The notes under the pieces are model-generated. The model saw nothing but the letters and a program-made list of their open reading frames with translations. It was not told where the DNA came from and ran no database searches. A DNA stretch of 64,000 nucleotides from Neelides folsomi (Eukaryota > Arthropoda > Collembola > Neelipleona > Neelidae). A program made the position numbers and the translations under genes. Of this stretch, positions 19,095 through 41,354 are shown piece by piece. Within the stretch, counting starts at the first letter, position 1; every line of letters starts with the position of its first letter. Location of the stretch: the NCBI GenBank assembly GCA_034687125.1, contig JAQGBZ010000285.1, forward strand, positions 18,908-82,907, given 5' to 3'.

Positions 19095-21132
19095 TTAGCG
19101 AACTGCAAGATATCCTCCCTTGAGACCATTTTTGCTCATCACCACTTGCCATAGTTGAAATTTTCTAGCTTTAAAAAATCCAGCGGCCATGAGAAGATAA
19201 AAGTTCCACATGCGATAAAACTTTTCGTCATATCCTTTTTTACGAAGTTCAGGCCAAGCTGCATTGAAGTTTTTATGCCAAGCTATAAGGGTCTTGTGAT
19301 AATCGTCACCAAAATTGTGCCAATCTTCAATCACAAAGGAACCTTCGATGAATTTGGGAATGTCTCGTGCATATGGAAGCATTCCGTTGGGAAAGATATA
19401 CTGAAAAAATAAAATTACCACTTGTAAATAAACGTCTCATTATAATAATAACTCGGTTCTGTATTTAAATTGCTATTTGTGAACATTACTTTGTGAACCC
19501 AGGGATCCGTGATGATCATGTCTTCATGAGAAACTCCAATAGTATGGAGCAAAAAAATCCCTTCATCCTCCAAACAATTCTTTACAATGTCAAAGAATTT
19601 TTTATAATTTTTCGATCCAACATGTTCAAAAAATCCAACCGTGACGATTCGATCGAACTTCTCATCGACGTCTCGATAGTCGCAAAGGCGAATTTCAACA
19701 TTTGGGAGATGAGATGTTGAATGCTTGGCCCATTTAACTTGCTCTGATGATAAATTGACTCCTACTGTGATCACACCGTAGTTTTCCGATAGATATTTTA
19801 CAAGGCTTCCATATCCACATCCAATATCAAGTACCTTCATGCCTGGCTTCAACATCAATTTCTTGGCAATTAAATCCATTTTGGCTATTTGTGCCTCTTC
19901 GAGATTCTTTGCCTCTCTCCAGTAACCGCATGAGTAGTTCCGATTTTGGTCGAGCATAACTCCATACAAATCATTTCCTGTATTGCAAATTAAAACATTC
20001 ATTTCAAGATCATTGGCAATTGCACTAATCAAAATAGTTTATATCTGTTCTGGTGTAATAAATATTTTAAGACTTAATTAAAAGCATAACTATCTGAGGT
20101 AACGAGTTGGATACTTTTTGTCTTGTTAAGTAGGTAAAATACTCAATTATTCGTACTTTGTATTAATAATATGTTAATGCTTATTTAACATGAGTAGGAG
20201 GCAATAAAGATAATGCAAACGAAGCGTGAATTATGATAGAGAAACACGTTCTCACGTTGATGCACATTTTGTTAAATTATTTAGGATCATCCTATACAAA
20301 ATATTTGTGCATAGGTATGCTTTTATACGTCTTGTTTAGTTTGTTTATACCTACATAATATAGTTATAGTTTAATATACTGATACTTTAATTATGCACAT
20401 ATTTATTACATCTGTATTAGATTATTGTAGATATTTTATAGGTTGAAATCCCTCATTCGCAAGTCAAACAGTTAGTTACTAATCAGAGCGCATAGAATGT
20501 GGATATTGCAAATTAAAAAGTAAACGCCAAAAATCCTAATTGTTTTAGTTAGGATTAGTAAAAGCGAGAAAATGAACAAATGTTACCTCTACAAGTAGAT
20601 TAAAAGAATTAGGACATAATGTATAAGAGTTTTAATTATTAGAAATAAATATTTATATGCTACATATTTGCTATTGTATACCTATATTTCTTATATAAGT
20701 GCATTCGTTTCTCCCCTCAAACTCACCAAGATTGTAATGCTTTTCGGCGACTTCGATTGATCTCGCCCTCGTTTGAAGATTAAGACTCCGGAGCATCACA
20801 TTATTCGTGAATTTGGTAATTGGATTAAAGTCTTGATGAGCTTTGACCCGATAAAGGCGATAGTTCATTTCACATAAGTCTTGACATTCGAACCATCCGT
20901 CCATGTAGGCTTCTCCAAATCCAACAGACGCTTCGACGGCTTGTCTTGCATAAAATTTCTCATTCTTCACTTGAATATCCCAGGGATCGGAACCTCCAAT
21001 GACAATCCCACGACGTTTGAAGTATTTGTATGCAATCTCTTTAAGTTGCTTTTTCATGAAAAAGCATACTCCATAACCTATCACTTGGTAAACTTGGAGA
21101 AATGCAGATATTAAATTTACAAAGAAATCCAT
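19095..21132 (-). CDS. Cyclopropane-fatty-acyl-phospholipid synthase, paralogue 1
   Basis: Three exons (21132-20727, 19977-19490, 19400-19095) encode 399 residues. The protein matches the bacterial CFA synthase layout throughout: N-terminal segment DPWDIQVKNEKFYAR and GEAYMDGWFEC, then NYSCGYW, the SAM-binding motif VLDIGCGYGSL, DYRDVDEKFDRIVTVGFFEHVG, FLLHTIG, YIFPNGMLPY, and the C-terminal KARKFQLWQVV. Residues corresponding to the bicarbonate site known from E. coli (Cys in NYSC, Glu in FEHVG, His in LHTIG, Tyr in NFYLL) are present, so it may be active. The known reaction adds a methylene from S-adenosylmethionine across a double bond of membrane phospholipid acyl chains. The start was chosen at MDFF because paralogue 2 begins the same way; an ATG 18 codons upstream is also in frame. 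The family is uncommon in animals and horizontal origin is likely. Confidence 0.9.
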
Positions 21133-23605
21133 ATTATTTCTTATATGAATATATTCAAAATATTTGAGACGAACAATATAATCCAAACTAATCCTTATCC
21201 AGTCCTAAGGAATGCTGTGTATAAACTATTTGGAGAGCCACTTTGTATTTACCTTTAGATCAGAAATCATTTAAAAGAGAATAAAAGGGCAATTTGAATA
21301 TGAGAGCAATACAAACGAGAACTGTGAACTACCGAGTTCAACTTGAATATGAATGTTTCTCCTTTCTTTCCTTTGGTTTTACCTCAATTTTGGAGCTAGA
21401 AGGGTTGTAAGTCAAGGATCTATACTTATGAGGTATTAAAATGCATAAATGTATATGATATAGTGAGAAATTGTGAAAATACACTCACGCATAATGATAA
21501 CTACCTATGTGTGTAGTTGTATCTTTTATTAAGTTAACATTAAACAATGTTTCCGTGTTTCACTTCGCGGTTAGGGGAGTCTGGTGTAGCACTTGAAACA
21601 AAAAGAGTTATTTTTTCTTTAAATTATAAAGAAACTGATTCTCTCTTCCCAACAACATTCATAGATATCGAGACCCAAATACACCAGCAGGTTTTAGATG
21701 TGATGCTAAGAGAAAAAGTTTTTATAATCAAATCTTTTCCATTTGCGGATTCCTTAATTGTTGTTGGGAATTGTATCAAGAGGATTTATAATGTCAACCA
21801 CCAATAGGGATCTGACTGATCTGCTTTCCACGCTATGTTTATATACAAAATAGTTTACAGTATATACCTAGGTATCTACATTATTATATACCTCCAGTGC
21901 CTATGAGTTTGGAAGTGATACCTAAAATTATAAGGCACATTTGAATAGAAATTCTACTTTAACAATTATAGACTTGGGTAATTATTATTTACGGGTATAT
22001 TAGCAATGAAAGCTGATGTGAGTTTTTTTATGACATACACTTTTTGTGTAGGTAAATTGGTTTACAATACTTATATCTATCTACTTCTACAGAAGACTTC
22101 TGTACTTTAACATTCTACAAATACGTTTGCACCGGTGCGGTAGTTGGCATTTTTGGCATTGCATTGTTTTTGAAAAAAATGATTTCATGCCTTGATTTTT
22201 CAAAATGTACTATATTTTAATGCAAAGTGTGTTATACTTATACATACTTAACAGTTAACTCTCAATACTGACCAGTCCGTTGAAATCTCAAAGGCAATTA
22301 ACTCAAGTAATGTATTTTCAAATCTAAACGTGGTTAGTTGATTAACTTTCAACCTCGATACCGCCCTGAGGATTTCAAGGGACTGGTATCAATTAGGATT
22401 TAACTTAGAAAGGTTATAGTTAAACACACAATTGGTATAGCTGGCATACACAAGAGGAACGAAGAAGTGTTGAACTAATATGTATGGATGATTGATTTGC
22501 ATTGAACTTTCATTTTCTATTTTAGTCGAGAAAGGCAGGAAGCAGAAGGCTGAAATTTTGACATTTTTCTTATGAATGTCGAAGAAGAAACTTTTAAAAT
22601 AACAACGATGATTGATCCTTCAAATCCATTTTACTTAATTTCAAGCTTAACAATACAGAATTTGCGACTCAAACTTTAAATAGGATGTAAGGGCGTGGGA
22701 AAGAAAATCACAATTCCAAAAATCCTAATTCTAAAGGCCGAATAATAAATTGGACAACATTAGAATACAATTTAGTACATAACATTCATATCAGTATACA
22801 TGATATGTAATTATAATTGGATATTGTTAATTCATTATTTTTATAACCGATTGTTATAATAGTTTAATGAAAGTTTTAATAGGCAACCTTAAAGTTAATA
22901 GTGTTAATTATTTATCTTTATACAATATTTAATAAGATTGAAACAAGATATTTTTCTTGAGTACATAAACATGTGAATAAACATTCAAATAATATGCACG
23001 TGTACTTTATTACTTTGAAGGGAGGAAAATATAGAGGATAAATAAACTATGCTACAAGATCTTTATTATAAATCTTATGTATTCTAACATTCGCCAAAAT
23101 TGCCAATTGCGATACCATGATGCTATACTGAGTATACGAGACTAAAATGATATACATGACATGCCTACATATTAAGTAGCTATAATACCTACATTACCTA
23201 CCTACTACTTACACATAAATATATTTTATATGAATTACTGAATTACACTAGATATGCATACAAGGTAGGTATATATTTTTTATGTCGCACTTCTCTCATT
23301 TCAAATAGGTTCATTATGAAAATTATACGTTTGTGATTTTTGAATATTTGTCGCTTATGTCTAGTCGACGTAGTCGAACTGTCTGGAATTCTATAAATAA
23401 TGTTCAAAGTTACATTTAAATTAGACGAGTTCGAACTCAAAGTTGTCTTACAAATAACAACCAGTTCACTGGAGGAGTTGGAAGTGCAAGAATCAAGAAT
23501 CTAGTCGCGAAAATCCCCATATCTTATTACACTCAAAACTTGACATCGGCTTACAATTTTTGCTTTAAATTCCCTGTAACTCATAATTTTAACACAAAAT
23601 ACATC
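21133..23605. other. Intergenic region between divergent CFA1 and the Artemis-like gene
   Basis: This is AT-rich. One open frame of 86 codons (21547-21807, +) starts MFPCFTSRLGESG. It has no recognised domain and no splice context, and is kept as unexplained. No tRNA or inverted-repeat element was found. Confidence 0.4.
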
Positions 23606-26019
23606 ATGGCTGATTGTACGATGATGGTCAATTGGGGGATTTTGCCCGAATTTCCCGACATCTGCATCAATGAGTTCAATTTGGCTCATTTTGATCGGAG
23701 TCGGGCCTTTTTCCTCACTCATGTTGACGAAGGTATGTAATTAAAGCATTTCTAATATCAGTAAAGTACTTTTTTACTGTCATATTCGGATTCCTGTTTT
23801 CAATCCTTCTGTTCTTAACATTAATAGAATACCTAACATTAAGTTTATTTATGATCTAATCAATCTAAATCCATATTTATCGTTATGATTTTCAGTTGAG
23901 ATGATCGAGAAGGTGCTGGATTTAAAGTTTCTTCAAAGACTTGAGATGACTCACGGGAACTGTCAACGATTGTACATGCACGAGATCTCTTACGCCTACC
24001 TTAATTATACGGCCATTGTGAAAATGGGACAAAAAGGAGCAATAGCTGCCAAGAAGTTGGAGAGTCTTAAAAAAGTCGGGAAAATCATCTTGCTCAAGAA
24101 GAATATTCCTGTTCGACTAGGGTTTCCACGTGAGGGTACTTTGATTGAGGTCACCGCTTTGAGTTCCGGATCAAACCCTGGAAGTATCATGTAAGTATGA
24201 AATTCCCTAAATTCTAAATTAAAAGTTAATTTTTGGCACATTATTACTAGCATTTTCTAATATTTCTAATGCTTCTTTCCTTTTATGTTTATTGGGATTT
24301 TTTTTTATTTTCTTACATATTCGTATGTTTGCACAATCTAGTATGTATTCTGTTCTCTGTCATTTATTAGCATATATAATACGGTAGGTAAAGGAGCAAT
24401 TATTATAATGAATATGTAATTTGAATTTATTTGAATAGGCTGCTCCTTGAGAGAATTGATAACCAATTGAATCCTGAAACCCAACGTGTGCTGTTCACTG
24501 GACGTTGTCGACTTGGACTTAAAGATTTGAAATATTGTCAACCGCTTTATGAATCTTCTGGAAGGTTGAAGAAAATTTCCAAGCTTTACATTGACACGAC
24601 TTTCTGCCGTGATGGGATTGAAGAACTTCCAGTGAGGAGAACTATCATTGAAGAAGCAAATGAAGCAATGTCAAAGAGAATTCAAGAGGACCCGAGCATC
24701 AAATTACAGCTAACTTCTAAATGTAAAACTTTTATCAATTATTATAATAATAAGTTGACTTTTTAGACGTCTAGACTTCTTGACTCTTATCGCAAATGTG
24801 AATAAACTAATTTTTGTATTTTTTGCAGGTGATATTGAAAATTTGCATTTTCTAAGGTATACATTTTGTCTCATTTGTAATCAATTTGAAATTTCTAACA
24901 AAAGGAATGAATTTTCTTCTTCCTTTCTCATAATTTACCTTTCCAAAGTAGTTCAATTCTATGCAATTATGTGTGATTTACATATTTCTTATTCATTGTA
25001 ATGTATTAAGATGCATCTACGAAGAGACAAAGGAAAAGGTTCATGTATCTGCTCCTTTGTATAAATTCATTCGGACAATTCCTGCTCTTGCATCTGCTGG
25101 AACTACGGCGTCGGGACTTCAAACTCAAGTAAATATAATTATGAATAAGATTTTATCATATGACATCGAGTTATTATATTTGTAAATGTCTTTAATGGAT
25201 GCTAATTTTTTCTATAGTTTCATTTTCATTATGGTTGTGACGTTCGAACTGAACCTGAGTGCGGCCGAGAAGAAGATGAAGCTGTGGAAGATGTGACACT
25301 TGTTGGAAGCATTGAAGAGTTTAATGCTGAGACCGTTGATGAATTTAAAGGTTCGTTTATTACCATTCATACTTATTGTACTTTACACGTGAATCTTCCC
25401 TCGCTTTTCCATAAATTATCAGTATAAGTAGACATTAGGGTCCGCAATTCTAATTTAACGTTTAGTAATTCAAATAATTTTGTTTTTTCATTCTCTTAGG
25501 TGCTTATTGTGGAATTTACTCGTCACATTTATCCAAATTCGAACTTGCAAGAATGGTGAACTACCTTGAGGTTTTACCAAAGAACGTTGTTCCTTTATAC
25601 GTTCCACATGGCATGAATATCCAAGAGGTAATTATTAATTTTTTAATCTTCTCTAACAATAAGTATAAGATAATTAGTCTGATATTAAACATATTTGGGT
25701 ATTTTATGAATTTGTGAGCACGAAATGCAAATTCAATAAACGAAATCTTGAACTTACTATTTAGGTGGAGATTCTCATTTATCTTGCGTGCATCATTGTT
25801 GAGGAAGAACCCGAGGAACTTAATATTGATTATCCAAGCCAATTCCATGACTTAACTGGGTGCAGTACCTTGTACAATGTCAATTACTACAAGATTCAAC
25901 GACCTGTGTTTGTTCATACTGAAAGACACCACCACAATAACATTCAACACAATTATAAAATTCATCCAGTGAATTACTTTAATAACCCTATATTTAATTT
26001 TAAAACATTGAACATATAA
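23606..26019 (+). CDS. SNM1/Artemis-like metallo-beta-lactamase protein, catalytic residues lost
   Basis: Eight exons (23606-23732, 23896-24190, 24439-24722, 24829-24856, 25011-25128, 25218-25350, 25500-25627, 25765-26019) encode 455 residues. The layout follows DCLRE1C/Artemis: FNLAHFDRSRAFFLTH, then ALSSGSNPGSIMLLLE, VLFTGRCRLG, LYIDTTFCRDGIEELPVR, a beta-CASP-like region, and VNYLEVLPKNVVPLYVP. The family normally has HxHxDH after LSH, His in the GHCPGSVM motif and Asp in the YTGDFR motif. Here these are HVDEVE, SNPGSIM and FTGRCR. Nearly all metal ligands are therefore missing while the fold-defining parts and a long intact frame remain. It is inferred to be a pseudo-nuclease, perhaps a scaffold. 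An in-frame ATG at 23540 is an alternative start. A divergent beta-CASP protein of another type is possible. Confidence 0.72.
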
Positions 26020-27624
26020 TCACTTACTGTTTTATTTTTCAAATATGATTAATTTATTTTAAAAAGAGTTGTATTTATATTGAAAATGACAAAAATATAA
26101 TTATAAAAATGCAGATTTTATTTATATTGTAACATTGAAAGAGATACAGAGATTTATTTATTGAAAGATATACAGAGATTTTATTTATTGCAAGAGATTC
26201 AGAGATTTTATTTATTCAAAGAGATACAGATTTTATTTATTTATTGTTATATTTTATATATCATATATTAAATGTTTATTGAAATTCATATACAAATTAT
26301 GAAGCTGTACATTTAACAGCATGTTTATACATCTTTTAAAAAACTACAAAAGTATTTTGTTGGTTTTTATATCAAAACATCTTTATCTACTTATAAATGT
26401 TATTTTTTGTTATGTTGTTTGTTGTTTCACACAATGAAAGCTAAATTGACTTACCGTATGGTACTTTCATATTCCCAAAACATTCGGGTATATCTTTTAC
26501 TTGTCAAACAATGTCAATTAAGTGAACGAGTGTTAACTTGTTAATTACATAATTAAATTTGTTAATTCATATACTTTTCATACAATTAATTTAAGGTTAT
26601 TTTGTATATTTTTTGTGAAATCAATTGATGATGATATGATTCTTCATTCTAATTGTTTCCCTATATTATATTTTATTTTTTACAATATCTTCAATACTTA
26701 TTATTTATTTTCTATCTTAAAATTAAAAATATTTTGAATAAATTGACTGATGAAAATTAATTACTTATAAGTATACTGTATTCGTAAACTCATCATAATC
26801 ATAATCATTACTTCATAACTCACAACTTCATAAATGTCATGTAATTTAATTCTCGTAAATCATGGTTGAGCGTAGAATGGCTTGGTGGTGGCTTGTTTGA
26901 TTTCATATTTTATATAAAATAATATCTTTTGCAGACTTTTATGCATTCAATTATTCGAATACAAAAACTGTGGAAATATTTAGGGAAGTATTTCTTCCTG
27001 GGCTTATTTCATCCCGACCTCAGCTCAGGTTCCATGAAGTTCTCAAATGACTCAAACTTAATTATTTTCCCCTAAAACCCATCAAAAACTCTGTCTCAAA
27101 GCCGAAACTCTCAACATTATAACCTTGTTTCTTCCAACTTCCTAATTTGCATTCATGATATTATGAATTTCCTTCAAGTTCTCATAAGACTTAAAAACTT
27201 GACGTCTCGTTTTGGTCTAACCTTGACCTAGAACCTTGACCTAAGGTTTTACATTTTATTCAAAATCTTTTTAAACCTTGCCTTGTGTTGAGTACGCTTA
27301 TTCAAGATCTAGGGGTAATTTGTAAAATACGACTAAATGTTGATCTAGAAAACTTCATCTCAATTCTCAATCGTCTTTTCGTCTCTGGATTTTTGGTTCC
27401 ATCAATTTCGACCCAAAGATGAAATTAATTTAAAGATATCATATAATTGATTGTATTTCATAGATAAATTGATATTAGGATTAAATCAATTTATTACTGC
27501 CTTGTGAGATTCATCCCATTTTCCAAATCACTTCAATTTTCAATAAAGATCGTCCGACAGGCATAATTATCACAAGGTAAAAACTTTTCTTTTAAATTAT
27601 AAAATTCAATTTATTTTAATCTTT
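26020..27624. other. Intergenic region, no gene seen
   Basis: This is AT-rich DNA downstream of the Artemis-like gene. It contains a short tandem repeat (26134-26250, listed separately) and no convincing exon. Confidence 0.5.
26134..26250. repeat. Degenerate tandem repeat, unit about 29-30 bp, four copies
   Basis: Four imperfect copies of a unit of the form TTGAAAGAGATACAGAGATT followed by TTATTTA lie about 115 bases after the stop codon of the Artemis-like gene, probably in or near its 3' UTR. The copies differ by single-base substitutions. Confidence 0.85.
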
Positions 27625-29839: not shown

Positions 29840-32666
29840 TCAATTAGTGTGGGCGTGTGGAAAAACTTCATATGGTACGGATGTAAAGAACGGTTGCATC
29901 CATCCTCCTCCAGTTCTTGACTTTTCATTCCGGTGAATGCCATAAAGTTCTCCATTGCTTCCGTAAACGTAGAAAGATTTTGCTGGCATTTCGTCGCCCC
30001 ATGAGAAAACTCCTCGAACGAAGTTGACAAATTCAGACTCGAGAAGAGCTCGAATTGAATCAACTAATGAAATTGATTCAAATGACACTTTGGGGGTCAT
30101 CAATGGATCTCGTGTCCTATTTGAATTACGCAATATTACATTATTTATTCATGAAAACAAATAACTTTGTATTTATCTAGATTATAGATATAGGATAAAA
30201 TATGTCAATACGCTATTAACTTACTTGTCAAAAAGAATACAACCCGACGATCCATCTCCTTTTGGAACTTCATAAAAGGCCTCAATTTCCATTGGTCCAA
30301 AAAACTTGTCATTTCGGTCAAACCCACAAACAGAAGTTAAAAAGTCGATCTTTGACAATGAGAGGGTTTCAGGAGAGTTTTCCAATTTAAATGATGATAA
30401 TCCAATCGGATATTTCCAAACTCGTTGATCTATATAAAAAATAGTACACATTTCATAGATGTTAAATTAAATAAATATTTCCTAATTGTTCGTTAGTTAA
30501 TTAATCTTTTCTATTTACTGTGTGAAGAGTCGAAAAGATAAATTGAATCATTGAACGTTCCTGCTGCAACAACTTTCTCGTTTTGGGGAAAGTCCTTAAA
30601 AACTCTTCTCAAGGGTAGCAAAACTTCAGAGCCAGTTTTACTAAAAAGTAAAATTACAAATCTCCAATTAAAGGGCACTTAATGTTAGTACTCAATTATT
30701 TAATGTTCATCAGATAAATTACTTTGTATCACACATGAGACAAGCATTTATACAAGTACGTTTAATGGTATAATATACATATGTACCATAAATGGTATAC
30801 CATACATGCGTTAAAGGTTTTTTAAATATTATGTTTTTCTTACTTGAATGCTGCAAGACAATGGGAGTTTTCAATGAACGAAATCATCATAGGTGTTCCA
30901 TCCAAAAATCCGAAAGTGATGGCTGTGAGGAACCGTTTAAACAATTCTCGATCTTCGAACAAACAAGCTTCATCTGTTGCTGAGGCTTTTTGAATTTCCT
31001 TCACTTGTGGAATTTGCGGACTCTGAGGGAATCTTTCTTGTGCGTTGGGAATAATGGGGATTTTGAAGAAAAGAGGATGATTTTCACTCTTGTCAAATAT
31101 AACATTGACAGGATGAGAATCAACGATTAATTGAGGAAGAATTTGATTAGATTTTGACCAAGAAGGTTTGGCTTCGATCTCTTGAACAGGAGTTACAATA
31201 TTTGAAGGTGCTTTTTGTGAATTTTGTGGGAGTTGACCATTAAATGGGTTTGGAACTTGAACCATGTGAACTCCAGTGGTTGGGTTTGACATGAGTGATG
31301 GCGATGCCAATGTTGAAATTGTTGCTTGATTAACAATGTTTTGATTTCCTTGTGGCATTGGAGGAACTGCCATATTTTGTGGTGGTGGAATTAATGGCAA
31401 TGTTAATGGCTTAAGCGTTGTTGACTTGCTCTGTAAGTCGTGGCTAACAAGTTTGAATGGAATTTTCTTGGATTTGAATGACTGGGTTACTCTTTGGTTC
31501 TCGGGCCCTGGATTTATGGAAGACGCAAGAATTTTTCGAATCTCGTCAGCATCCGTTTGAGGGAATAATGTAACTTGTTCTTCTGGAGTTAAAACGAATG
31601 AACTAATTGTGGACGTTTGTTCTGTTCCGCTTTCTTCAGTGGTTTCAATTCCATCCGAAGTTGTTGAAGTTTCTCCAAATCTTTCATCAATCAGGTCGTT
31701 GACATCATTCTTATCATGGTTCTTTTTCTTTCCCGACTTTTCATGTTTTGTACCCAAAACTTCCAATATTTCTTCCTTACTTAATTCTGGCTCCGATTCA
31801 GAAATTCCCTCAGGATGATTTTCTTTTAATTTGCTCTTTAAGTCCTTTTCAAATTCATTGGCCACAAATTCGGGAGATTTGATTTTTTCTGAGATTTCTT
31901 GAACCGGTTCGGAGAGTTTTAAATGATTTTTATCTTCAAAGTCTTCAACTTCTTTGAATAGATCCGGATGGTTTGGGTCGACATGAGCTTGATTTGGTTT
32001 CGGAGTGCTGACAATCAATTGGTTCGGATCAGGTATTAACTTTATCTTCAGTTTAGGTTCATTTAAATCGTGGTCAAGTTTTTGGATACTCAAATCTTCC
32101 TCATTCTCGCTATCATAATCTGACGAATCCGATTCTGATTTTTCCTCGTCCTTTTCAGTCTCAATTATTGGGTTGGTTGGGGTTTGAGGGAGAGGTGAAA
32201 AAGTAATTTTTTTATCTTTAGGAGATTTAGGACTCAGAATGGGAAAAATGCTTTCTTTTTCTTCTTCTCTCAAATCTCTTTTCGTTGTTGAACGAGTGAG
32301 TCGCTTTGCACGGAGAGATTTAGTTGATTGACGCCGTTTTGTGTATGGGAGATGGCGAACTTTTTTGAGTTTGCTCTTCAAAATGGCTCTGTAAATAATT
32401 GTTTTATTCTCTTCCTTGTTGGTAGGAATTACTGAGTTTAAGCATTGGAGTTCATCTGAAGAGTCTTCCTTGTAAAGTGTAATTCCAATACATTGTTTCT
32501 CCTTCTCACATTCGGCAGAACAATTTGTGTAAAGAGCATTCTCCTTTTCTTCCTCTGTTTTGTTCAATAAGTCCAATTTAAGGGATGATAAATTAATTTT
32601 GACATCTTCGGATTTACAGAATAATGGGAGGACCACGAGAGCAAAAATGCACAACAAAAGATTCAT
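29840..32666 (-). CDS. Unrecognised secreted protein with apple-like N-terminus and long disordered region
   Basis: Four exons (32666-30844, 30640-30519, 30429-30225, 30116-29840) join in phase to 808 residues. The start is a clear signal peptide (MNLLLCIFALVVLPLFCKSE). Residues about 45-80 hold four cysteines in a spacing like PAN/apple modules (YTNCSAECEKEKQCIGITLY). A basic segment with RAKR at 119-122 fits a furin site. Residues about 130-560 are low in complexity, rich in Glu, Ser, Lys and Pro, and probably disordered. The last 250 residues look folded (SIYLFDS, RVWKYPIG, SFYVYGSNGELYGIHR) but match no family I recognise. It is probably an extracellular or matrix protein; its function is not known. 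Confidence 0.75.
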
Positions 32667-34400
32667 TTTCTCACTTTATCAAAAATCCAACGGTCGGAAT
32701 TATTTCATTATTATGTTATACGGTTTTCGTGAAATTAAAATTGAAGCTTCAATGTTCATCAACTAATTATTGTAATTTTAAAATTATAATAATTAACCAT
32801 AACCCTTTCCACTTACTTTTATATCTTTGGGTATTGAATAACCTTACAACTTTAACCTTACATTATTAAGCATTTAAGGATATTTTGTAAACAATTTGTT
32901 CTAATTTATTGTTCATCATTAAATTATGTCATTAGCGTTTAAATTGAGACAAACATTTAACATAATTGTACTTAAGATTTTGAGAGTATGAGTCGAATAT
33001 TGAATGTAATTTAATCTTAATTGTTCCAATTTTGAGCCATTGTACAACATAGTAGGTATTTACGAAAAAATTCCAACTTATGGTTAGTTATCTCTCGTTA
33101 TGAATTCATTACTCTGCATCAGGTGGATCGTCAAATTAAATTAAAATGTTTATATATTTTCTTTGTGTAGTATCATATGTAACAACTTAATATATTTAAA
33201 TATGTTATAATGTTATAATGACATACAAAATTACAAGGATAAATTATTTTTAGAAATCTGACAAGTTTTCGTCTCTTGAAAATAAACATTGTGTAGAATA
33301 ATAATATGTATCTTTAATGGGATGTTCTTGTACATTGTAGTTGAGAATGACTATAATATTACAAATGAGCATTAATCATATTGAAAGTTTGATCTCATAA
33401 AGAACGGTTACATGGGAGTATATTGATAAACAAATACTTATGATTCAAAGTCAACCGTTTCAGGGAATAAAGATAGTGATGAATAAATATAGAAATAACT
33501 ACTTTGTAAGTCAATGGCAAATGAATGTATTAAATAACTGGAGGATGTTAACAAACTCATTTAACTTTTTGTATTACACATGTTAGTTGATCTTTGACTT
33601 TAAAGTTTTATAACACGACAAAATTAATTGGTTCTCAAAGTTCAGTGAATTCTCTGACCTTAAGAACTTTTAATTGCACAGACAAAAAAATACTTTATGT
33701 ACCTAATATCGTATTTTTTCATAACTATCAATTTTGTATAGTAAGATACATAGTTTTTAATGATTGATTGTAAATTTTGAGTTTCATTCATGAAGTCAGA
33801 TCTCTGGAGAAGATTTAATATTAACTCCAGTTTAGTACTTTAGTTTACAAATAATTATATCAATTTGGGAAATTTTTAATTCGACATAAATACATATTAG
33901 CTAATTGTAAGTGCACTTGAATGTGTTACTATTTATAAATACATGTATTAATTAATTATAGGTATTTTGTATTGCATTGTTATTTTCGGTTAGTAAATCT
34001 AGTGCGACTCATTACTCATTATTATTAAATATGAATGCCAAGTTAATTTAAAAACTACATATCTAAGTTTATGATTAGTTTATGATTACTAGAATTTTTC
34101 TTGTTCGCACATTTAATCAATATGTTACCTTGATTATTCATATCATATAATACTGGTATGAAGACAGCTATTTTGATCTCTTTTCAGCTTATTATCTTTG
34201 CTGAGATTATCAGACAATTGAGTTGAGTTGTATTGCCAAATTATAAATGATTACAATTTGTGAACAAGTCCCTGGAACATCGTTACCAAGTGGGTAATTC
34301 AGGAGTGGATAAGCAAAGTGTTCAATAATAAATAATTTAGTTTAAATAAGTGAAATTGAAACCACACAAAGAATAAATTGAGCGTTGTGGACCTGGGAAA
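32667..34400. other. Intergenic region between divergent genes, no gene seen
   Basis: AT-rich DNA with no recognised exon, RNA gene or inverted-repeat element. It must contain the promoters of the secreted-protein gene (-) and the transporter (+). Confidence 0.5.
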
Positions 34401-37760: not shown

Positions 37761-39239
37761 TCATCTTGGAGAGTGATATCCACCAGTTAGTCCATTTTTA
37801 GAGAGTACAACTTGCCACAATTGGAATTTACGTGCCTTGAAAACCCCAGCGGCTGAGAGAAGATAATAATTCCACATTTTGAAAAACTTGTCATCGAATC
37901 CGTTCTGTCCTTTCAATTGGGGCCATCCGGCAATGAAGTTCCGGTGCCAGGCCAGGAGTGTTCGGCTGTAATCATGGCTAAAATTTTGCCAATCTTCCAT
38001 TATGAACAAACCATCAAAAGCATTTGACATTTCCAAATGGTAAGGAAGCATTCCATTAGGGAAAATATACTGCAAATCAAATATTAAAATAATATATGTT
38101 AGGTATATCTTACCGGCGCTCTTACATAATATAGTATTTAGAATAAATATTTAACTATTTATTTTAATACTTTTTGAAAACAATTAAGAATTTAAATTAA
38201 GAATTTTTAAAGTATGATAATTAATTTTTGGTTTTTACTTTGTCGACCCAAGGATCCGTTTTAATAACACCTTTATGAGCTTGTCCAATTGAATGTACAA
38301 GAAAAATTCCATCATCAACAAGCCAACTGTGAACAAGAGTGAAGAATTCTTTATAATTTTTGACTCCAACATGTTCCATGAGGCCAACTGAGACAACTCG
38401 ATCGAATTTCCCTTTAATGTCTCGATAGTCAGAAAGGACAAACTCAACATTGGGCAAATGTTTGCATTTATTTCTTCCCCACTTGACTTGCTCTGTTGAA
38501 ATATTCACTCCGACCATTTGGACCTTATAATTTTCTGCCAAATATTTGGCCAAGCTTCCATATCCGCAACCAAGATCCAAAACCCGCATTCCGGGTTTCA
38601 ACATCAGTTTCTTTGCTACAAGGTCCATTTTAGCTATTTGAGCATCATTCAAATTGTCAGCAATTCTCCAATATGCACATGTGTAATTCATTGTTGGGTC
38701 GAGCATTTTTTCATAAAGAGAATTTCCTATAATTTTAACAGAGCCAAATTAAATCATTTCCAAGAATGTATAAAATCATAAGCATACAATCACTACCAAT
38801 TGTAAAATTTTATAAACGGATTTTAGATCTTACCAAGATCGTAGTGTTTTTCAGCCACTTCTTTTGATTTGATTTTTGTCTGGAGATTAACAGTTTTGTA
38901 CATTAAATTGTATGCGAAGCTTCTCAATGGATTGCAATCTTTGAGAAAATTGTCTCGAGTGAGACGATAGAAAAATTCAGGAATGTCTTTGATGTCAATC
39001 CAACCTTCCATGTAAGATTCACCCACTCCGAGAGTGAAATCCACAACTGCTCTCGTGTAGAACTTTTCATTTTTAACTTCAATATCCCATGGATTTTGTC
39101 CATGAAAGAAAACTCCCCTTGATTCCAATTGCCACCGACAAAGTCTCTTCATAATTGATGGACAAAACCATCCCAAGCCGTAAGCCACTTTACGGTAAAT
39201 ATACAAATAGAGGGAGAAGATCGAATGGAGAAAATCCAT
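37761..39239 (-). CDS. Cyclopropane-fatty-acyl-phospholipid synthase, paralogue 2
   Basis: Three exons (39239-38834, 38726-38239, 38069-37761) encode 400 residues. The first two exons have exactly the lengths of paralogue 1 (406 and 488 bases), and both introns fall at the same positions and phases, so the two are duplicates. Motifs present are NPWDIEVKNEKFYTR, ESYMEGW, NYTCAYW, VLDLGCGYGSLAKYL, DYRDIKGKFDRVVSVGLMEH, FLVHSIG, YIFPNGMLPY and KARKFQLWQVV. The residues expected at the bicarbonate site (Cys, Glu, His, Tyr) are retained. The protein differs from paralogue 1 at many positions, so the duplication is not recent. An upstream in-frame ATG at 39266 is an alternative start. Confidence 0.9.
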
Positions 39240-41354
39240 TTCGATCAATTTAATGGACGTGTACACTTCAGGAGAACTGTCTATCTCCTTCCTTGGCGGA
39301 AAAGGGACTGGAAAATTCAGGAATGACTACTTTCTTACAAAAGTAGATTTTTGAGAACTTGACCAATTTTATATATTTAGAAAGAAAATGAACCATTTCT
39401 TCATATGCGTCGTAACCAAATTCATATCTTTATTTCAAACCTCCAGGTACAGGATAGATTCTATTGTATTAAAGAGTTAAATATATAATTTATGGTATTT
39501 GGGTTCGGTATGTGTTTTGTAAAGGAAAGCTATATAGTTTAGTGAGTACATATATTCCAATATTATTAATATTGTATGGTACATATTTTTAATCCTTTTC
39601 GGAAAATGTCCTTTGGAGTAGGATAGTACTGTTAAATGGAAAAGGGACACATCCACACATGGCAAATTGGTTTATTAAACAAGGGTCAGAACCTATTATA
39701 GGTTAGTCGGATTCTGCCAAACAATTCTAAATATGAACAATACAAAAATACTAGTACACATCGATTTCAAAGCTTCAATTTTGTGTTCATGCATGCCCTA
39801 TATTTGTATAACTGTATGGAGGGAGCCGGGTGCTATTTTAATCTTAAACTGTATCACTCCCTCCTTACTTTTGATGAATTTTAAGTTTATTAAAAGTTAG
39901 AATAAGATTTATTTATGAGCCATTATATTAGTTTGTACCTAGTAAGTATGCTTAATGTTAGTTAATATGAAAGGTTCAAACAAAGTAATTAGGAGTTTTG
40001 AGTTAATTTATTCTGTTTTCCGACCATCACGTCACGACACAACATCAAGAATCATTCTAAATTATTTTATCTGTTTTACATTGAAAGTACTACCCAAGAG
40101 CATAAAGGTTTGCGCGACCCCTCGTCTAACATTGAACAAAGGGAGCGCAAGCCTTTCTGCTGTTGGGTAGTAAGAATGAGAAGGGTGGAAGACACCTCTA
40201 ATACACAGATATAATTTCCTTATTTTGTCTATCACTTATCACTTAACAATAACATTGGTTTTCTACAGGCATTAATAAAAGATCATAGCAAATAATAACT
40301 TGTTTAGTATTAAATATGTAGAATTTCCCGTTATTACTTTATTGCAAAGACAAAAATATAAACAATTATTGTTAGTTTTTAATGCAATATGTAATGTATA
40401 ATATCTCATTAACTTTTGGTGTTTATTTTTGTAATTATTTAAATCTACATAAAAATACGGTAATACTAATCATAATAAAAACTATGATCATTACATAATA
40501 TTTATATTGTATATATAAGCTATTAGTAAATAGTAAGTAATGTAATAGTAAATAAATCATACGCGTTCATACAAATTCGTAAATACAGATTCGTTTCATT
40601 TGTTTCATTGTTTCAGTACGTTGCCACTTTTTTGAGTCTTTTAGCGTTCCATTAATTGGCTTTTCATTTCAATTCTTTTCTTTAAGGGATCGAAAAATGA
40701 AATTGAACGAGCTCATTGTCCTTTTCTCGTGTAAGATTTGTGCATATGGGATTGTAAATTGTAATTAATTGTGGTGTAGCTAAAATAAATAAATCTTTTG
40801 ACTGATAATTAATATAACTAATTTTTCTCATAATTCATATTTATGTTATTAGATATTAAACTTTAAATATAGAATAAATATTTGGGATAGATAAATATTA
40901 TATTTATATTCAATACATAAAATGAAGGAGACACAAGGAGTCATCCAAGATCGTAAAGAATCTTCAATATGTTTTAACTTAAATTTTATATCTTTATTGT
41001 TAAAAGTTATTGTTAAATTGTCCTTAACTTACAATTCGTGACATTTGACACCTGTATTTGGTACTTGACAAGTTTAAAATTGACCATATATATTAATTAT
41101 AATGGTTGTAAAACTCGTACTTATAGAGAAAGAGAAATTGAATTCTACTTTTTCTATCCACATCAATTCAATGCTGGAATACACAAGAAGTGTGTATTTC
41201 CACAAGAAGAGTTCATGCATGTAAGTAATTTTTTATTATTACTTACGAAAGAGTTTTATAAATTTATGATAGTGTCAACTAGGAAAAGTCTACATGTGAG
41301 AATCGAGGCCGTTGATCATTGCTGGAAAGGGATTTATATTAATTTATAAAAGGC
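39240..41354. other. Intergenic region with one hairpin, no gene seen
   Basis: AT-rich DNA between CFA2 and the end of the sushi-domain gene. The only structured piece noted is an imperfect hairpin at 40088-40172. A 103-codon open frame at 41038-41349 is AT-rich and looks random. Confidence 0.45.
40088..40172. other. Imperfect hairpin of about 85 nt (precursor-miRNA-like shape)
   Basis: The left arm TACTACCCAAGAGCATAAAG, continuing GTTTGCGC, pairs with the right arm GCGCAAGCCTTTCTGCTGTT, continuing GGGTAGTA. This gives a 28-bp stem with two mismatches and one G-U pair, and a loop of about 29 bases. The size and imperfection resemble an animal miRNA precursor. Either arm could also be the remnant of an inverted-repeat element. 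No known miRNA seed was recognised. Confidence 0.35.

Follow-up and report, generated by a model that had tools for sequence, protein, structure and literature searches.

The window analysed here, a stretch of 64,000 nucleotides from the collembolan Neelides folsomi, contains a gene related to the DNA nuclease Artemis in which an open reading frame runs through a catalytic site that has lost most of its metal ligands. Is this a duplicate on its way to decay, or a pseudo-nuclease that has been kept for a role other than cutting?

Gene structure and family assignment

The spliced translation comprised eight exons separated by seven introns, all of them with GT-AG borders, and the resulting frame of 1368 nt encoded 455 residues with no internal stops, as the sequence-only reading of this locus had described (Table 1). 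Past the stop codon, after a further 115 bp, comes a 27-bp tandem repeat of 4.1 copies.

Table 1. Exons of the Artemis-like gene and other features of the window (residue replacements given relative to Artemis)
Feature	Position	Strand	Content
Artemis-like gene	23606-26019	+	Eight exons
Exon 1	23606..23732	+	N-terminus to HVDE; motif 1 Asp17 to Asn; motif 2, first part, with His33 retained and His35 to Asp
Exon 2	23896..24190	+	Remainder of motif 2 (Asp37 to Val, His38 to Glu) up to motif 3 (His115 to Ser, Cys116 to Asn)
Exon 3	24439..24722	+	Motif 4 TGRCR (Asp136 to Arg); motif A YIDTTF (Asp165 kept)
Exon 4	24829..24856	+	28-nt micro-exon inside beta-CASP
Exon 5	25011..25128	+	beta-CASP; KVHVS, His228 equivalent kept
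Exon 6	25218..25350	+	FHFHYGC...PECG: His254 kept; His288 or Cys291 at Cys256; Cys299 at Cys272 (hhalign only); acidic stretch after
Exon 7	25500..25627	+	Motif B YSSHLS (His319 kept); Val341 (motif C) to Tyr near the 3' end
Exon 8	25765..26019	+	Domain end; tail of about 80 residues, terminal part rich in His and Asn; stop codon
Tandem repeat	26134-26241		27-bp unit
CMAS exon	19415-20038	-	Cyclopropane-fatty-acid-synthase-like
CMAS exon	38221-38748	-	Cyclopropane-fatty-acid-synthase-like
Frame neighbouring a CMAS exon	20671-21204		Resembles a first exon by eye; no Pfam match
Frame neighbouring a CMAS exon	38823-39326		Resembles a first exon by eye
Open frame	30840-32675	-	611 codons; no Pfam match; possible signal peptide by eye

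When the encoded protein was compared with PDB sequences by phmmer (E up to 1), the seven distinct matches obtained were all Artemis (best E 7.3e-12). Alignment by hhalign to a two-sequence Artemis profile, built from human Artemis and the Artemis gene that we found on contig C36 of the same assembly (see below), gave an E of 8.1e-22 over 326 columns (residues 7-374), against 2.1e-5 over 122 columns for a profile of SNM1A, Apollo and the SNM1A-like gene on contig C559. The blastp values followed the same order, with 3e-23 to C36, 1e-16 to human Artemis and nothing better than 2.9e-4 to SNM1A, Apollo or C559. The phmmer and hhalign values exclude a chance resemblance. As judged from these comparisons, the window gene is a member of the Artemis/SNM1C (DCLRE1C) subfamily by descent, homologous over the MBL/beta-CASP domain, and the family proposed from the letters alone is supported. 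A CPSF-type relation, which had also been raised, was rejected, since the PDB comparison, with its E limit of 1, returned no CPSF or INTS sequence. The profile check that had been recommended gave no help: the sole Pfam match was sub-threshold and to an unrelated family (E 0.13), meaning that Pfam would miss this gene, and NCBIfam returned no useful match.

Replacement of the metal ligands

In the alignment, six of the seven residues of MBL motifs 1-4 were replaced (D17N, H35D, D37V, H38E, H115S and D136R) and H33 stayed. Relative to human Artemis and to the genome's own active copy, HVDEVE, SGSNPGSIM and FTGRCR occupy the sites of HxHxDH, AGHCPGSVM and YTGDFR, which leaves HVDEVE, Ser135 and Arg163 at the metal-ligand positions in place of HxHxDH, His115 and Asp136. 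The proposed loss of the metal-binding motifs is thereby borne out, with one amendment: the His of GHCPGSVM had been read as changed to Asn/Ser, and it is Ser that stands at His115, the Asn falling at Cys116. Motif A Asp165 and motif B His319, joined by a hydrogen bond in human Artemis (PMC7458816), were retained as Asp193 and His338, as were the Artemis-specific His228 and also His254, which is common to all SNM1 proteins (PMC8450076). In motif C, Val341, which the five active relatives compared below all share, is Tyr in the window protein. At the beta-CASP zinc site (His228/His254/Cys256/Cys272), hhalign placed Cys at positions 256 and 272 and MAFFT a gap and an Arg; position 272 is a weak test of this site, because in MAFFT the active copy on C36 likewise lacks a Cys there. 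In C36 the next Cys after Cys256 comes just five residues on (IHACKSGDC), as against sixteen in human Artemis.

Could the canonical motif be restored by an exon missing from our model? HxHxDH was absent from the six-frame translation of the unspliced region 23300-26200, a scan blind to a motif split by an intron. Moreover, intron 1 interrupts the same codon in the same phase in the window gene and in C36, and the altered His35 lies 5' of it, in exon 1. Taken together, these observations make restoration by an extra exon, as considered in the sequence-only reading, unlikely, short of a different first exon.

The consequences of such changes can be judged from human Artemis, in which Asp136 is a ligand to both metals and changing any one of His33, His35, His115 and Asp136 abolishes function (PMC7458816). 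The human H33A and H35D proteins are inactive and, in crystals, lack the active-site metal; their overall fold is preserved, as is the structural zinc (PMC8450076), so that loss of the catalytic metal alone need not unfold the domain. H35D, found in Omenn syndrome, is the very His35 to Asp change seen here, although there it is a single disease mutation and in the window gene it forms part of a natural multi-site replacement. By analogy with these structures, the window protein would still fold and would be unable to cut DNA.

An Artemis with intact motifs elsewhere in the genome and the origin of the window gene

The assembly (75.1 Mb, 840 contigs, window included) was searched with the window protein, which yielded eight matches, seven in the window gene itself and one on C36, and with human Artemis, which yielded four, of which C36 accounted for two and the window gene and C559 for one each. 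The gene on C36 (124451-122533, reverse strand) carries HGHSDH, AGHCPGSVM, HTGDCR and YLDTTF along with the motif B His, and its protein matched Artemis at E 1.8e-44; going by its sequence, it is an Artemis with all motifs intact, which fits the catalytic copy that had been suggested as something to look for. C559 harbours an SNM1A-like gene (22673-19960, reverse strand) with intact metal motifs, and it was the only hit of a DRMBL family search of the genome. That this search returned C559 alone indicates that exon-wise searches, which gave no further Artemis copies besides C36 and the window gene, can miss genes, and that more copies may exist. DNA-PKcs-like and Ku-like sequences lie on C350 and C69, respectively, so end-joining partners exist in this genome.

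Three of the four C36 introns coincide in alignment column and phase with introns of the window gene, at the codons of Asp37, Met121 and a beta-CASP Ala. Among the seven introns of C559 none falls in the same column as a window-gene intron, and two are in the same phase three columns off; these near matches imply that two introns of the window gene may predate the Artemis family, one of them among those in common with C36 and the other a fourth. The shared introns give no date for the duplication. They do exclude a retrocopy, and a processed pseudogene was rejected given the seven introns present, three of them common with C36. In a six-sequence tree the window gene grouped with C36 with moderate support (93/90, short of what the program itself counts as firm). 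Its branch was longer than that of C36 (2.72 against 1.13), a length at which the program warned that placement of the row was unsure. From the alignments, introns and tree, we conclude that the window gene arose by DNA-level duplication of Artemis and has since diverged. Contamination was thought unlikely, as the window holds eukaryote-type genes (COP9 subunit 7, BET domain, CAP) and a matching Artemis is present in the same assembly.

Other features of the window and assembly

Two CMAS exons, of a family common in prokaryotes, were noted in the window (Table 1), and CMAS gave 12 exon-wise matches on five contigs of the genome. On the mitochondrial contig, C742, a mitochondrial tRNA search located trnL(UAA) between cox1 and cox2, which is the pancrustacean order. 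Intradiol dioxygenase, a spider-mite marker, had no match in the assembly.

Retention, decay or altered activity

Invariant columns were defined over five active relatives (human Artemis, SNM1A, Apollo, C36 and C559). The window gene kept 25 of these 44 columns: one of seven in motifs 1-4, both of those in motifs A/B, and 22 of 35 elsewhere, motif C included. Loss was concentrated in motifs 1-4 relative to the other columns (1/7 against 22/35 kept, one-sided p 0.025), a depletion that is not significant when motifs A/B are pooled with motifs 1-4 (3/9 against 22/35, p 0.11). The exons scored as coding in their own frame (0.215; C36, 0.147). The other frames scored -0.01 and 0.05, the gene's introns ranged from -0.26 to -0.47, and none of 500 shuffles exceeded 0.016. 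Scores remained above the shuffles when the codon model was derived from the SNM1A-like gene alone (window gene 0.093, C36 0.085, shuffles at most -0.016) or from that gene plus C36 (window gene 0.150, shuffles at most 0.060). In neutral simulations started from the present sequence under an assumed mutation model (n=3000), 99% of the runs hit a stop by 0.061 substitutions per site. A stop would thus almost surely have arisen in any neutral phase of more than about 0.06 changes per site, which places the catalytic loss, if it proceeded at ordinary rates, before such a phase. Replacing the six ligand codons required at least 10 changes in 18 bases, an argument that is post hoc because the gene was picked for those very changes. 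With positive selection left out of the argument, loss of the catalytic site probably preceded any phase of neutral change.

The explanation that most directly competes with retention is that of a recently silenced duplicate, a pseudogene in which a stop or frameshift has yet to appear. Its long branch, equally expected under relaxed constraint, and the loss of 13 of the 35 non-motif invariant columns fit such a gene; the intact frame and coding signal, which as sequence features argue against long neutral decay, and the short time within which a stop almost surely arises do not, and we regard silencing as improbable. An altered yet active enzyme, whose Asp/Glu-rich site (His39, Asp41 and Glu44) would take another metal or perform other chemistry, could draw on these three potential ligands in the motif 2 stretch and on the retained Asp193 and His338, but it would have to work with an Arg in the place of the ligand shared by both metals and a Ser at His115, where the human enzyme tolerates no change at any of the four positions cited above (PMC7458816); we consider it very unlikely indeed.

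A third alternative keeps the protein at DNA: a non-cutting competitor that binds DNA ends and protects hairpins or ends against the active Artemis. Homology to Artemis along the whole domain and the basic MBL half (net charge +8.1, compared with -3.6 to +5.2 in the five active relatives) would suit it. The beta-CASP half, however, carries -8.8 against +1.8 to +6.2 in those relatives, and the stretch matching human residues 254-316 carries -11.1 against +0.4 to +7.0; this stretch includes Arg257 and Lys260, which line proposed DNA pockets in human Artemis (PMC7458816). With such an acidic beta-CASP half, the normal Artemis mode of DNA binding appears unlikely and protein binding is the better guess, so that we give the competitor little chance. 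Weighing these alternatives, we think it quite likely, as far as selection can be read from one sequence, that the window gene is a duplicated Artemis turned pseudo-nuclease and kept as a protein-coding gene. The earlier suggestion that it was kept for another role stands to the extent of indirect evidence, namely the frame, the codon signal and the retained fold residues, and no further.

A possible role and its relation to known pseudo-nucleases

What might a retained, non-cutting Artemis do? Tentatively, it may act as a protein-binding modulator or scaffold in end-joining, its metal centre possibly swapped for a salt bridge between Arg163, at the position of Asp136, and Asp41/Glu44. A parallel is offered by INTS9 and CPSF100, MBL/beta-CASP proteins that likewise no longer have their metal ligands and that function next to an active paralogue (PMC7980224), and this pairing makes an Artemis-related partnership the natural first candidate; an active SNM1 protein as partner, as raised in the sequence-only reading, would be possible. 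In contrast to the window gene, INTS9 and CPSF100 are members of the RNA-processing branch, and their pairing with INTS11 and CPSF73 runs through C-terminal domains. More doubtful is the idea of an SNM1/Artemis pseudo-nuclease branch parallel to INTS9/INTS11, in which an Asp/Glu-Arg salt bridge would stand in for the metals and a protein with an acidic beta-CASP half would be a non-cutting partner or inhibitor of Artemis-DNA-PKcs.

Human Artemis has a long tail. The window protein lacks it, and differs further from Artemis in its acidic beta-CASP half and in motifs 1-4 that are dismantled save for His33; it resembles Artemis in its MBL/beta-CASP homology, its Artemis-only PDB matches, its His228 and the three introns of the genome's own Artemis. 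In the literature surveyed, a partial sample with few subscription papers, no inactive paralogue of the SNM1 group was found and pseudo-nucleases appeared only in the CPSF/Integrator branch. Within the MBL/beta-CASP family, pseudo-nucleases are already known on the RNA-processing side; a dead Artemis that is maintained, if true, would carry the principle over to DNA end-joining and would provide a natural experiment on functions of Artemis other than cutting.
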